From Candidatus Omnitrophota bacterium (GTDB taxonomy: Bacteria > Omnitrophota > Gorgyraeia > Zapsychrales > Zapsychraceae), in NCBI GenBank assembly GCA_016212005.1, contig JACRHP010000088.1, forward strand, positions 1 through 37,706: 37,706 nt of DNA, in the 5' to 3' direction. Position numbers and translations under genes: made by a program. Numbering within the stretch: the stretch's first letter is position 1; the number at the start of each line of letters is the position of its first letter. This document shows, piece after piece, positions 3,690 to 7,997 of the stretch. Below the pieces are notes generated by a model. It ran no database searches. It was not told the DNA's origin and saw only the letters and a program-made list of their open reading frames with translations.

Positions 3690-3763
3690 TCGGGGCGCAG
3701 GGATTTGAACCCTGGACCTCAACGTCCCGAACGTTGCGCGCTAGCCAACTGCGCTACGCCCCG
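3690..3763 (-). tRNA. tRNA-Pro(CGG)
   Basis: Folds as a full cloverleaf: acceptor CGGGGCG/CGCCCCG, D stem GCGC/GCGC, anticodon stem CAACG/CGTTG with loop TTCGGGA (anticodon CGG, reads CCG), and T arm CAGGG-TTCAAAT-CCCTG. The C1-G72 pair and G37 are typical of tRNA-Pro. The discriminator is A, CCA is not encoded, and a run of eight T follows at once and can end the transcript. Confidence 0.96.
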
Positions 3764-4343: not shown

Positions 4344-4367
4344 GGCTATTACCTCTATTAGATGCCT

Positions 4368-4775
4368 TTATTTCTTATTCAAATACTCAAACGCCCATTT
4401 ATAAAAACGCTCGGCCTGCTTAAAAATATCCGCTGCCTCATTTTCGCGGAATTCTCTGCCTTCATAGGCAATGACGTTCTTCTTGGCGATAATACGGCGG
4501 ACTGTTGCCGTCTGCTTTTCGATGCCATCAATGGGGGAGCGACCTAACAGCTCAACGGCCTGCATGTGATCATCTCCGGCCGCACGAATGCCCTGCGACT
4601 TGACTAACAACGCATCGCAAGAAGATATCACGCAATGCACGGAATTTAACCCGACGGATGCCCACATGCGGTTTTTATAAGCATGGTGCATGGTGTCGTA
4701 GAATTCTTCCGCCTTGTTCCAGTAGACAACATATTCGCTTTGATCGACCGCCCTTGTTTTCAAGTGTTTCATCAT
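4368..4775 (-). CDS. HEPN-like protein, probable partner of the adjacent nucleotidyltransferase
   Basis: An all-helical 135-residue protein resembling HEPN-domain proteins encoded next to minimal nucleotidyltransferases. The helix VHCVISSCDALLVKSQGIRA and the later RRIIAKKNVIAYEGREF resemble the two core HEPN helices. The canonical R-x4-H RNase motif is not clearly present, so RNase activity is doubtful. It overlaps the upstream HTH-nucleotidyltransferase gene by 4 bases (ATGA), which argues for one coupled module. It may be the toxin or a substrate-binding partner; the assignment rests on pattern and context. Confidence 0.7.
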   Translation of the reverse strand: MMKHLKTRAVDQSEYVVYWNKAEEFYDTMHHAYKNRMWASVGLNSVHCVISSCDALLVKSQGIRAAGDDHMQAVELLGRSPIDGIEKQTATVRRIIAKKNVIAYEGREFRENEAADIFKQAERFYKWAFEYLNKK

Positions 4776-5401
4776 CGCAAAAGCTTCTCCAATCTGTCGC
4801 CATAAATAAGCTGATAAGATTTAAGAATATGCGGCACGGCTCCGGCTTTCTTCTTGGCGTTAGTTCTGAATTCGGCGATGCTATTAACATAAGGAGAAAT
4901 CAGATTTCCCCACTGAGAGGACAACCGCTGATCTATGTCGAAAAAAAACATTTCAATGCTTTTCTTGAGTTCGGAGGTCTTTACAATAACAAGGAGATCC
5001 ACATCGCTGTCCGCGCGTTCCGTTTTGGCATGAACGCTGCCAAAAAGCGCGACACTCAAAATATCATCCTTGAGCACGGACTTCTTTATTGCCGCACGGA
5101 TGATATCAAATAATCGCTCACTCAACCTTTTCTCGCACAAAAAAAGAGGTTTTAAGGCTTCGCGAACGATGGCGCGCTCATCATTCAGACGGAATAAATG
5201 GGTTTTCCCAACCGCGCGCATAACCAACACCCCTTCCCGAAGGAGATCCTGCAGAATTTCATGTGCGGTCTTGGGCGTCACTCCCGCCATCTTTGCCATT
5301 TGCCGACCGCTCATTTCACCGGGATCCTGGCAGAGGATCCTCAAAGCCCTGACTTTAACCTCATTATTTAAAATTTTATCGAGTGGCTTATTTAAGCGCA
5401 T
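4772..5401 (-). CDS. Winged-helix regulator fused to a MNT-type nucleotidyltransferase
   Basis: A 209-residue two-domain protein. Residues about 13-72 form a winged helix-turn-helix (SGRQMAKMAGVTPKTAHEIL with wing LVMRAVGKTHLFRLN), typical of a transcription regulator. Residues about 113-205 form a polymerase-beta-like nucleotidyltransferase with GS at 121-122 and DVD at 133-135, the G-S-x10-D-x-D metal-binding signature. Together with the HEPN gene it forms a probable toxin-antitoxin operon in which this protein would modify its partner and repress its own promoter. The palindrome at 5423-5440 is the likely operator. The ATG at 5401 gives about a 34-base leader and has no strong ribosome binding site. 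Confidence 0.85.
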   Translation of the reverse strand: MRLNKPLDKILNNEVKVRALRILCQDPGEMSGRQMAKMAGVTPKTAHEILQDLLREGVLVMRAVGKTHLFRLNDERAIVREALKPLFLCEKRLSERLFDIIRAAIKKSVLKDDILSVALFGSVHAKTERADSDVDLLVIVKTSELKKSIEMFFFDIDQRLSSQWGNLISPYVNSIAEFRTNAKKKAGAVPHILKSYQLIYGDRLEKLLR

Positions 5402-5422
5402 ATGTTTATAATTTGGAACACG

Positions 5423-5440
5423 TGTTTACTTAAGTAAACA
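5423..5440. promoter_or_regulatory. Perfect 18-bp palindromic operator candidate
   Basis: TGTTTACTTAAGTAAACA is fully self-complementary. It starts 2 bases downstream of the -10 box and covers the expected transcription start of the HTH-nucleotidyltransferase operon, the classic place for a repressor dimer. Autoregulation by the fused winged helix is an inference. Confidence 0.75.
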
Positions 5441-5441
5441 A

Positions 5442-5470
5442 ATAATACCCGGAAATGAGCCCCTTGTCAA
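5442..5470 (-). promoter_or_regulatory. Strong sigma70-type promoter of the HTH-nucleotidyltransferase/HEPN operon
   Basis: Minus-strand TTGACA (5465-5470), a 17-base spacer and TATTAT (5442-5447) form a near-consensus promoter. The 18-bp palindrome follows directly, so repressor binding would block initiation. Confidence 0.8.
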
Positions 5471-5492
5471 ATTAGAAATTCTCAAAGTCACG

Positions 5493-5552
5493 TCAATGCC
5501 ACTTGCAAGGGTTTTCGTGGTACGTGTTTTTCGCCGGCTGTCTGGATGGCAT
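5493..5552 (-). pseudogene. 19-codon fragment sharing its start with the ORF at 6191-6313
   Basis: A short frame beginning MPSRQPAKNTY, 2 bases after the hepT stop, ends at a TGA after 19 codons. Its first 11 codons match the ORF starting at 6313 (MPSRRPAKNTY) apart from one residue, because both lie in the 34-bp direct repeat. After that the two diverge. It looks like a leftover 5' end of the same gene and is probably not functional. Confidence 0.5.
5519..5552. repeat. 34-bp direct repeat, copy 1 (left border of mntA-hepT)
   Basis: Positions 5519-5552 match 6280-6313 in 32 of 34 bases and in the same orientation; the mismatches are at repeat positions 8 and 21. The two copies enclose exactly the mntA-hepT gene pair plus part of the fragment at 6191-6313. 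Confidence 0.9.
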
Positions 5553-5554
5553 GC

Positions 5555-5902
5555 TCAATGAGCGCCTGACTCATTAAGAATCTTTTTTAAATTTCGCTTC
5601 AATTCCGGCAGGTCATTCTGAACGACCTCCCAGACGACATCCAGGTCCACCCCAAGATAATCATGGATCAGGACATCCCGCATCCCGGCGATATCCCTCC
5701 AGCCGATCTCCGGATGCCGACCGCGGACACTTTGGGGGATTTGCTTGGCGGCCTCGCCGATGATCTCCAGATTACGGATAACGCCGTCCTGGACAAGTTT
5801 GGTTTTCCAAAACCGGTCTTGCGTCAGGTCCCGCGTGTAGCCTTCGATGGTCGCGATCGCGTCCAGCATATGGTGCAGATAAACTTTGCAGTCTTTATTC
5901 AT
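5555..5902 (-). CDS. hepT: HepT-like HEPN ribonuclease toxin (DUF86)
   Basis: A 115-residue DUF86/HepT protein. HEPN proteins of this family are RNases with a composite R-x4-H-x-Y site, present here as R75, H80 and Y82 in [13 protein letters not shown]. In studied HepT/MntA pairs the antitoxin attaches AMP to that Tyr and neutralises the toxin. The start overlaps the mntA stop by 8 bases, giving the usual antitoxin-first order. All catalytic residues are present, so it should be active. It belongs to a different family from the HEPN protein at 4368-4775. Confidence 0.92.
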
Positions 5903-6194
5903 GCAAATAAACCGCCTGTTTTAATACGCGCCCGCGGATGTACTTGCTCAAGGATTTCGGCGTGGCGATGTCGACATCCTTGTGGAGGAGTTCCTGCAAA
6001 TCCAGTTTCAAACCCACCATATCCAGCAGGCTTGTCCCCTTCTCGAATTCCACCAGGAAATCAATGTCGCTTTTCCTGGTCGCCCGCCCGCAGGCATAGG
6101 AACCAAAAACGGCGATGCGCCTGACATGATACTTCTTGAGCAATTCCCGGAACCTTTCCTCGTAAAAAATCGGATCAAACCGTCTTTTGATCAT
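5895..6194 (-). CDS. mntA: MntA-type antitoxin nucleotidyltransferase
   Basis: A 99-residue minimal nucleotidyltransferase. The signature GS at 31-32 and DID at 43-45 fits G-S-x10-D-x-D. By family knowledge it would AMPylate the Tyr of HepT and so inactivate it. A GGAG site lies just before the ATG. The ATG also overlaps the TGA of the short upstream frame (ATGA), suggesting coupled translation. No dedicated promoter is visible between the gene and the repeat at 6280-6313. Confidence 0.92.
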
Positions 6195-6313
6195 GTGGCA
6201 TCAGCTCCTTTTTGAATCACCAAGCGCGCGTCCTTCAGGGCGCGGTCACAGATCCCGGCGATATCCTCGAGAAGTTTCTGGTACGTATTTTTCGCCGGCC
6301 GTCTGGATGGCAT
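6191..6313 (-). pseudogene. Truncated N-terminus, possibly of a DUF1016 (YhcG-type) nuclease
   Basis: A 40-codon frame beginning MPSRRPAKNTYQKLLEDIAG, with a GGAG ribosome binding site. The stretch TYQKLLEDIAGICDRALKDA resembles the N-terminal helix of DUF1016 proteins (PDDEXK nucleases linked to restriction systems). The frame stops at a TGA that overlaps the mntA start, where a full gene would continue for about 300 residues. It is either a decayed gene or a short leader frame now used to couple mntA translation. The family match is short and tentative. Confidence 0.45.
6280..6313. repeat. 34-bp direct repeat, copy 2 (right border of mntA-hepT)
   Basis: Same orientation and 32/34 identity with 5519-5552. 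It contains the ribosome-proximal start and first 11 codons of the truncated ORF. Confidence 0.9.
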
Positions 6314-6387
6314 TAGCCGTTCTCCATTGTTCGTCACTCGTCTACAAAATCAGCCTGTCCCTTTTTAAAGTGCCCGGCACATTATTT

Positions 6388-6474
6388 TTACATTATGTAA
6401 GGAATTTCTGTCCCTTTTCTCAGTTGATTCTTGTGGGCATTCGTAGTAAATTCGATAGCTTTAGTGATTAAGCC
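6388..6474 (-). pseudogene. N-terminal fragment of an HD-domain (RelA/SpoT-type) hydrolase
   Basis: Minus-strand reading gives LITKAIEFTTNAHKNQLRKG followed by TEIPYIM and a stop. This matches the first helices of small RelA/SpoT-like HD hydrolases, which continue with His-Pro after IPYI. The break falls exactly there, next to the short palindrome GTGCCCGGCAC (6370-6380). The ATG upstream is out of frame. It is a degraded remnant, not a working gene. Confidence 0.5.
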
Positions 6475-6475
6475 A

Positions 6476-7264
6476 TTACTTTTTTTGTTGCTCATCGATT
6501 TCATCATCTGGAATAGACCTTATTCCCTCATCTAAATTATCGTCTTCTGGTATAAATTCAACATTTTCATTATTTGGAGCGATGGATTTTCTTTTTAGTT
6601 GAGGAGGTGGTAAAAATTCATTTTTTATTGCTGCTTCATAAGCAGTCTGTTGATCGTAACCAGCTTCAATGAGAGATTGGTAAATAGCAGTTTGATTCTT
6701 GAGAGTTTCTTGCTTTCGTTCTTCCTTTTTCTGCTGTTCTTGTTGAAATTTTTCTAATCCTCTGACAGCATTGCTCAAAGGATCGGTCTGGTAATATCCG
6801 GGTTCACCACCGGGTTCTAATATTGTCTTTGGTCGCACGCCGGCCGGAACCGCTCCTTCCGGTATCAATCTATTTAAAATCGTTTCAGAATACAAGAAAG
6901 TCTCATTAGGGGAGATTTTAGATTCTTCTCCGGGATTCAATGCTTCTTCTTTTTTCTCTTTTCTTGTGAAAGTATCTTCATATACGGGATTTCCATAAGC
7001 ATCCGTAAAGGGCTTACGTCTTAATACCCCCGCGTTGCCTTGGTTATCCTCAATTTCGTATTCATCTTGTCCATAGGTATTGGGGAAAGGTTTCTTATTC
7101 ACATTTACTTTGTAACCATCCTCTTCGTACTCATATTGATCATTTCCATAGACATCTTTAAATGGCTTCTTTCGCCATTCTCCGGCATCGGCAAGAAATA
7201 TACTCATCGTAAAAAATAGAAAGTATGCCAAAAAGATTGAGTTTATTTTAGCGTAAGTCTTCAT
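6476..7264 (-). CDS. Exported protein with three KPF-YG repeats
   Basis: A 262-residue protein with an N-terminal signal peptide (hydrophobic at about 9-25, cleavage probably after ADA-G). The mature N-terminus has three repeats of about 28 residues, each beginning basic-K-P-F and carrying Y-G and Y-E: KKPFKDVYGNDQYE, KKPFPNTYGQDEYE and RKPFTDAYGNPVYE. The C-terminal half is charged, Gln/Glu/Lys-rich and probably coiled coil or disordered. I do not recognise the family. It is 4 bases downstream of the PEP-CTERM gene, so they are probably co-transcribed. The segment is AT-rich compared with the flanking core genes, suggesting later acquisition. Confidence 0.75.
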   Translation of the reverse strand: MKTYAKINSIFLAYFLFFTMSIFLADAGEWRKKPFKDVYGNDQYEYEEDGYKVNVNKKPFPNTYGQDEYEIEDNQGNAGVLRRKPFTDAYGNPVYEDTFTRKEKKEEALNPGEESKISPNETFLYSETILNRLIPEGAVPAGVRPKTILEPGGEPGYYQTDPLSNAVRGLEKFQQEQQKKEERKQETLKNQTAIYQSLIEAGYDQQTAYEAAIKNEFLPPPQLKRKSIAPNNENVEFIPEDDNLDEGIRSIPDDEIDEQQKK

Positions 7265-7268
7265 TTGC

Positions 7269-7880
7269 CTACTTTCTTTTTTTGATCATCAAACCGAATA
7301 ATCCTAAGCCTAAAAGTGATAAAGTAGCGGGTTCGGGCACAGGAGCTACTTTAAAATTATCCAAGCCGACCGTGTTACCTGCTTGAATAATGATGTCCAG
7401 ATGATTAACATCGGAAAGCACCTTTCCCCAGTTTTCTTGTGTGGTATTCCAAGCCTCTGCGGTCAGAGGGACATGATAGGTTTTCCAGAATTGAGTTGAA
7501 GGAATAGGAGGATCGATATAACTAAAGGTCGCATTTGAACCACCCCCATTCATTTGGATTCTTCCAAAGCCACTTCCTACACTTGTAAGAGGAGTTGTTG
7601 GCTCAAGGACAATAAAATCATAGGAAAATAGCCCTCTATCAAACTCTAACAAATTTCCTCTAAATTTTGATGGTGGTATGGCAGCAGCCGTATCGTCAGC
7701 ATTATCCGTGATGCTTAAAAATCCACCGGGATTCCCTCCAACACCTTCATGCATAACGGCCGCCCCGGAGGCTGTCCAACCTTCATCATCAACATCAAAT
7801 GTGCTGATAATCAGCATTGCATGGCTATGCGTAGCAAAACAAAAAAGAACGATCATCAAGAGCAAGAACGCTTTCATCAA
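7269..7880 (-). CDS. PEP-CTERM surface protein
   Basis: A 203-residue exported protein. A signal peptide occupies about residues 1-21 (ending HSHA). The middle is a beta-rich domain with FDVDDEGWT, GGNPGGFLSI and HLDIIIQAGNTVGLDNFKV, similar to laminin-B/carbohydrate-binding-like folds seen in such proteins. The C-terminus is a textbook sorting signal: VPEPATLSLLGLGLFGLMI followed by KKRK. Exosortase would cleave it in the periplasm during export to the cell surface or exopolysaccharide; no exosortase gene is in the window. An AGGAG ribosome binding site precedes a double ATG. Confidence 0.9.
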   Translation of the reverse strand: MMKAFLLLMIVLFCFATHSHAMLIISTFDVDDEGWTASGAAVMHEGVGGNPGGFLSITDNADDTAAAIPPSKFRGNLLEFDRGLFSYDFIVLEPTTPLTSVGSGFGRIQMNGGGSNATFSYIDPPIPSTQFWKTYHVPLTAEAWNTTQENWGKVLSDVNHLDIIIQAGNTVGLDNFKVAPVPEPATLSLLGLGLFGLMIKKRK

Positions 7881-7942
7881 TTTCTCCTTTCACATTTATA
7901 TAACCTTGTAGACGCTTTATCTAACCCCTTAGCCTTGTGCTC

Positions 7943-7986
7943 ATTATAAAACAAATGCCGTGCCAATGTACACTCCCGGAGTGTAC
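7943..7986 (-). promoter_or_regulatory. Possible promoter with 19-bp palindrome, before the PEP-CTERM gene
   Basis: The minus strand has TATAAT at 7943-7948. At the expected -35 distance there is no TTGACA, only one end of a perfect inverted repeat with 9-base arms, GTACACTCC/GGAGTGTAC (7968-7986). A weak -35 with a palindrome on top suggests an activator-dependent promoter. The same palindrome could instead be the terminator hairpin of fabG, whose stop is 11 bases away, but a T-run is lacking. Confidence 0.45.
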
Positions 7987-7997
7987 TACGGTGCGCT

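Follow-up and report, generated by a model that had tools for sequence, protein, structure and literature searches.

Direct copies of a DUF1016_N-SNase gene start around a mntA-hepT pair in an Omnitrophota genome, and their possible origin by insertion with long target duplication

Introduction

How small chromosomal toxin-antitoxin (TA) pairs that have no transposase enter genomes is an open question. It is raised by a mntA-hepT pair in a stretch of 37,706 nucleotides (the whole of it is called the window here) from an uncultured groundwater bacterium of the Omnitrophota, where an earlier note had described the pair as lying between two direct repeats that open the same protein start. For restriction-modification systems, insertion with long target duplication is said to have been described by Nobusato et al. 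in 2000 and by Furuta et al. in 2010.

Two copies of one protein start lie on either side of mntA-hepT

A repeat search of the window revealed a direct repeat of 35 nt whose two copies have the same orientation, a spacing of 761 and 33/35 identical positions (94%), while about 3e-9 such matches are expected by chance in 37.7 kb with equal base frequencies; the same-strand bracket around mntA-hepT is thus real (Table 1). The description of the repeats as exactly bordering the pair holds on the hepT side, where the ATG of copy 2 is 2 nt from the hepT stop codon, but not on the mntA side, where the 35-bp identity stops ∼85 nt ahead of the mntA start. The lengths previously read for the frames opening at the two copies (Table 1) are correct, and the stop of the leader open reading frame (ORF) overlaps the mntA start as ATGA. 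Copy 2, in turn, has decayed and enters the remnant of a DUF2283-like gene that resembles, in a comparison by eye, L025 from 3724 onward and the end of an ORF in L028 (RRKPLQVALT*). Upstream of the start codon the two copies differ, with a REP-like leader ahead of copy 1 and the end of hepT ahead of copy 2, and the sequence ahead of copy 2 has ∼18 bp in common with copies in the genomes G001 and G021. Because the upstream sequences diverge from the start codon, the duplication is not simply readable outwards, and one side must have been altered since. The last hepT codons (ESGAH) seem to derive from the sequence preceding the downstream repeat, judging from the hepT of another genome, G043, which stops earlier.

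Both proteins of the pair have intact motifs, namely GSx10DxD in MntA and RDVLIHDY in HepT, the latter comprising Rx4-6H plus the neighbouring tyrosine. Against the NCBIfam equivalog cut-off of 60 bits they reach 49.6 and 50.4 bits (MntA, 50.4), and by these scores the genes are best described as a HEPN-MNT pair of the MntA-HepT kind, yet not as an equivalog by the NCBIfam standard. In type VII systems of this kind, the antitoxin AMPylates the toxin, and the toxin stops growth. As proteins they are ordinary, and the interest of the locus is its genomic context: the unit between the repeats consists of the leader ORF, mntA and hepT only, with no transposase or integrase inside. A second TA pair, HTH-MNT/HEPN, has its own promoter-like site at 5470-5442 (TTGACA-17-TATTAT). 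Copy 2 was also considered as the head of this second pair, which was dropped given that site and the course of copy 2 into the DUF2283 tail.

Table 1. Features of the window and bracketed TA or Fic units in related genomes
Genome or locus	Feature or unit	Position	Strand	Basis or repeated piece
Window	Accessory island between fabZ and fabG	4344..7997	.	3.65 kb
Window	Second TA pair: HTH-MNT (5401-4772) and HEPN (4775-4368)	4368..5401	-	
Window	3'-end remnant of DUF2283-like gene fused to copy 2 (CGAAAACCCTTGCAAGTGGCATTGACGTGACTTTGAGAATT)	5470..5517	-	Outer limits approximate
Window	Repeat copy 2, 3' of hepT	5518..5552	-	Opens a 19-codon ORF, MPSRQPAKNTYHENPCKWH*
Window	hepT, HEPN RNase toxin	5555..5902	-	Pfam HepT-like 3.4e-31; 107.9 bits vs cut-off 23.5
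Window	mntA, minimal nucleotidyltransferase antitoxin	5895..6194	-	Pfam NTP_transf_2 5.5e-15, above cut-off
Window	Leader ORF, MPSRRPAKNTYQ...GADAT*	6191..6313	-	40 codons; sequence and 5'-end homology to the L028 gene
Window	Repeat copy 1, 5' of mntA	6279..6313	-	First 11 codons of the DUF1016_N-SNase 5' end
Window	REP-like leader 5' of copy 1, GCCGGGCACTTTAAAAAGGGACA	6314..6386	-	Found also 5' of repeats in G001 and G003
G032	MNT-HEPN			3'-terminal 84 bp of a PEP-utilising, ptsI-like gene
G019	MNT-HEPN, then a VapBC-like pair			Three copies of a gene 3' end (46-57 bp; one gene, unknown family)
G021	MNT-HEPN			262 bp of a glycosyltransferase 3' end
G005	HTH-MNT/HEPN			74 bp of DUF1016_N-SNase 3' end; outside HepT scan
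G021	Phd-ParE			93 bp of DUF1016_N-SNase 3' end; outside HepT scan
G000:C41, L106 (window's own genome)	Fic-family gene	5934-7285		78-bp copies (88%) of DUF1016_N-SNase 3' end; outside HepT scan

The repeat is the 5' end of a DUF1016_N-SNase gene

A search with the leader peptide found a full-length gene, L028, in the congener G005 (UBA10147, Candidatus Omnitrophota). It starts MPSKQLAKNTYQKFLDDIAGIYDRALKD and encodes 382 amino acids, with Pfam matches to DUF1016_N (5.7e-30) and then SNase (1.1e-5), and its codons 1 to 31 align with the window at 82% DNA identity, the homology of copy 1 running on to codon 31 at position 6221. The full-length gene beginning with the repeat, as the earlier note had predicted, therefore exists, adjoining fabG and with no TA pair in front. 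The G005 locus is not a strict empty site, because only ∼10 bp of its upstream sequence matches the window, and no relative showed this exact junction with one repeat only. In the window, nothing is left of the body of the host gene beside copy 2. The family is a regular one in these genomes, and further full-length DUF1016_N-SNase genes are present in G005, G003 and G011, those of G003 and G011 being labelled by similarity to the G005 protein. The leader peptide had no match in a protein search of plasmids, and a scan of the genome contigs for the repeat returned only loci already found or members of the same repeat family; one match to the leader peptide, in G002, was rejected as chance, as it sits within an unrelated 418-aa ORF.

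The family was also met at the edges of assemblies. Contigs of the window's own genome (G000) and of G005 (L096, L097, L099 and L100) terminate within DUF1016_N genes, and two such contig-end genes in G000 share 93% identity across 551 bp; recent copies of the family thus seem to break assemblies. In addition, REP-like leaders of the form GCCGGGCACTTT..AAAAGGGACA stand ahead of gene-start fragments in the window and at L025 4179-4238 and L026 7185-7265; some of them then carry AACACYTGACACAAA, which occurs alone at L112 3254-3276.

The same gene start recurs in the fabZ-fabG island of relatives

The bracketed pair is part of an accessory island between fabZ and fabG (Table 1). In many relatives fabG and fabZ are adjacent, often <100 bp apart, which is the ancestral order with an empty junction. 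In G001, where it is split between two contigs, this junction is occupied as well, and G005 and G021 have it occupied next to fabG or fabZ. Read in the orientation of the window, the G000 island has mntA-hepT after copy 1, the DUF2283 tail after copy 2 and then HTH-MNT/HEPN. That of G001 has DUF433-DUF5615 behind one copy, MNT-HEPN later after a second and DUF4258-like/DUF2283 behind a third, the DUF4258-like label being given by eye to a protein for which Pfam returned no match. The island of G005 holds the intact DUF1016_N-SNase gene, and that of G021 a decayed DUF433-DUF5615 behind a mutated copy, with an SNase tail at the contig end. DUF433-DUF5615 is thus headed by the DUF1016_N-SNase 5' end in both G001 and G021 (sister species). 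Between these genomes, which belong to two genera, the block shows 87-93% DNA identity, compared with 76% for fabZ, and the similarity begins at the repeat and ceases at the toxin stop codon.

The same 5' end is found without any TA pair ahead of a protease gene in G000:C41, G005:C74 and G003:C53; the G000 instance, at C41:3944-3997, is a third repeat copy in the genome of the window (85% over 54 nt). Since it heads different TA pairs as well as this protease gene, the 5' end is no signature of mntA-hepT. The protease-like gene encodes a large, secreted protein, the 5' end lies just ahead of it (L007 3944-3997, L027 3975-4049 and L076 1501-1572), and its position is orthologous in the three species. 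Like the two copies in the window, the G000 copy by the protease gene has CCG (Pro) as codon 6, as though these copies had been homogenised inside this genome.

Two further kinds of element were observed in these comparisons. Beside the island, at a tRNA-Pro, a GIY-YIG-like endonuclease gene (named by eye) is present in G001:C56 (L026 4121-4700) and G003:C64 (L061), and in both cases 39 bp of the tRNA end are duplicated beyond it; the window at 3690-3763 has the empty form of this insertion, which was the sole clean empty site observed. A dispersed repeat, GGTTGGYTGCGCGCGGCACCAGCAGTAACAC, follows just after island genes (L025 3789-3837 and 6006-6080; L028 1690-1737 and 2167-2210; L029 7424-7498) and is possibly a REP or terminator-like element.

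Ends of other genes bracket other TA and Fic units

Among the genomes searched, the nearest mntA-hepT is that of G043, from a different family of the same order, with 79% amino acid identity in MntA and DNA similarity to the window (74%) from the mntA start codon on. The G043 pair sits behind a DUF433-like gene, which it again overlaps by ATGA. One copy of an amidohydrolase 5' end stands on either side of this three-gene set, and the amidohydrolase gene itself is intact downstream. G043 thus shows the arrangement of the window, except that another gene supplies the repeated piece. Pieces of other genes, this time 3' ends, bracket further MNT-HEPN, HTH-MNT/HEPN, Phd-ParE and Fic units, including one in the window's own genome (Table 1).

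Direct repeats on both sides of hepT were sought at 30 HepT loci from the order, 29 of them distinct. Repeats were found at 9 of the 29 distinct loci, versus 4 of 90 sliding control intervals that were unmatched for accessory content and from which two intervals containing a TA pair or Fic gene had been set aside (Fisher p 0.0004). The sliding intervals were added because fabZ loci alone (0/26 bracketed) are a poor control, given their housekeeping neighbourhood. With the two cases known beforehand removed, the figures are 7/27 versus 4/90 (p 0.003). Clear copies of gene ends account for five of the nine (window, G043, G032, G019 and G021), and a strict count of clear host-gene ends, again minus the two known cases, gives 3/27 versus 1/90 (p 0.04) or versus 4/90 (p 0.2), so that the strict enrichment is weak. 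These statistics are modest and partly post hoc, and because the criteria were fixed after the first cases, the survey figures are a lead and not a test. Direct repeats at L118 (palindromic), L136 (TGTCATTCCCGCG family), L137 and L133 were excluded as gene-end duplications, and one of the repeats in the control intervals (31.4-33.5 kb of the window) consists of two tRNA-Ser genes.

Insertion with long target duplication and its alternatives

The explanation we prefer, and to which we assign about an even chance, is that mntA-hepT is a transferable TA cassette inserted at the 5' end of a DUF1016_N-SNase gene with a long target duplication. Host sequence taken from the end of a gene does flank the unit here in direct copies, and the GIY-YIG-like insertion at tRNA-Pro, with its 39-bp duplicate and the empty form in the window, speaks for this explanation too. 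The earlier note had envisaged insertion into, or capture by duplication of, the 5' end of another gene; this stands insofar as the repeat is such a 5' end and gene-end brackets recur in relatives, but the 5' end is not specific to mntA-hepT. Under this explanation, the two ends of the cassette would join the target at least 35 bp apart, placing the target gene start on both sides and the cassette behind the target gene's own start region. The target start codon and coding region would remain intact downstream, because of which the insertion could be tolerated. The upstream copy, comprising the start codon plus 31 codons, would become the leader ORF, perhaps translationally coupled to mntA through ATGA, while the downstream copy would later lose the rest of its gene, a deletion fusing it to the DUF2283 gene tail. 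Offset joining of this kind would give flanking direct copies without need for a transposase, and insertions that duplicate a gene end would leave the gene whole; the same process at 5' or 3' ends of other genes may have produced the bracketed TA and Fic cassettes of the order. Against it stand the diverging upstream sequences, the missing host-gene body by copy 2 and the protease lineage without TA.

Somewhat doubtful in our judgement is that the copies are relics of deletion, in which tandem units of a DUF1016_N-SNase gene plus a TA pair lost the gene bodies but retained the start region, from which the downstream antitoxin is driven, so that 5'-end fragments of unequal length now precede each TA pair. 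DUF1016_N genes are indeed numerous (9-10 matches per genome in G000, G001 and G005), G005:C78, G003:C48 and G021:C48 have intact ones immediately 5' of TA pairs and in the same orientation, and a DUF1016_N match precedes AbiEii in G000:C26. Moreover, the fragments always retain the start codon and end at varying points (codons ∼11, 18, 22, 25 and 31) shortly before the next gene, and pN/pS between them is 0.30, indicating that they diverged under protein-level constraint. However, the 3' part of the gene is absent beside every fragment, and such deletions leave unexplained the amidohydrolase 5' ends of G043 and the 3'-end duplicates accompanied by an intact host gene.

It is unlikely, in our view, that the 5' end together with the REP-like leader is maintained as a functional head for expression, whether as promoter, start region or leader peptide, which spreads by recombination and is common to TA pairs and the protease gene. 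The start codon and an open frame are retained in 9 of 10 copies, the ATGA overlap with the next gene occurs in both the window and G005:C74, and the exact 14-mer ACACYTGACACAAA of the leader occurs three times in nine genomes, always ahead of a gene-start head (two DUF1016, one amidohydrolase). The stop positions, on the other hand, are unconserved, the G021 copy has an early in-frame stop, mntA and DUF433 carry ribosome-binding-like sites of their own, and the leader of copy 1 yielded no promoter-like match. Least probable are integron-like or otherwise recombinase-driven cassettes with the repeat as attachment site, an idea suggested by the TA cassette arrays of G000 and G001, in which one repeat recurs between the cassettes. 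It was dropped since different gene ends form the brackets from locus to locus, in place of an attC-like common site. The repeat also ends at varying places, and neither IntI nor another integrase was recognised by eye among the ORFs of the G000, G001, G005 and G021 islands.

Returning to insertion with long target duplication, we extend it tentatively, and with less confidence than for the window itself, to many TA families of the Omnitrophota. These may move as autonomous, transposase-free units that duplicate the end of a target gene, with either a preference for gene ends or a selective filter, and each would begin at the antitoxin start codon, or where a captured gene 5' end starts, and finish with the toxin stop codon. 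The brackets made of other genes' ends in relatives suggest that addictive pairs enter genomes while duplicating a short piece of the target. As such brackets can be counted across thousands of genomes, TA insertion with long target duplication is directly testable. The repeats could, in addition, permit amplification of the TA pair via homologous recombination, or its loss, for which the earlier note had predicted a clean excision leaving one copy.

Comparison with known systems

The window shares with type VII MntA-HepT (PMC11586414) the adjacent MNT antitoxin and HEPN toxin and the GSx10DxD and Rx4HxY motifs, and differs in scoring under the NCBIfam equivalog cut-offs. As in superintegrons (PMC2654758), TA pairs are arrayed as cassettes; unlike there, no integrase was recognised in the islands, no common attachment site is apparent, and the brackets are ends of host genes. 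The closest likeness is to restriction-modification systems, for which insertion with long and variable target duplication has been proposed (PMC3031569, PMC3874152), the duplications being of the order of 100 bp (PMC3874152). In both cases a small addictive unit, in which no transposase is seen, lies between long, variable direct copies of its target, whereas here the units are TA or Fic cassettes, the duplicated piece is a gene end (5' or 3') and the host belongs to the Omnitrophota. Long-target-duplication insertion, already described for restriction-modification systems and applied here to TA cassettes, is the explanation that fits the locus best.
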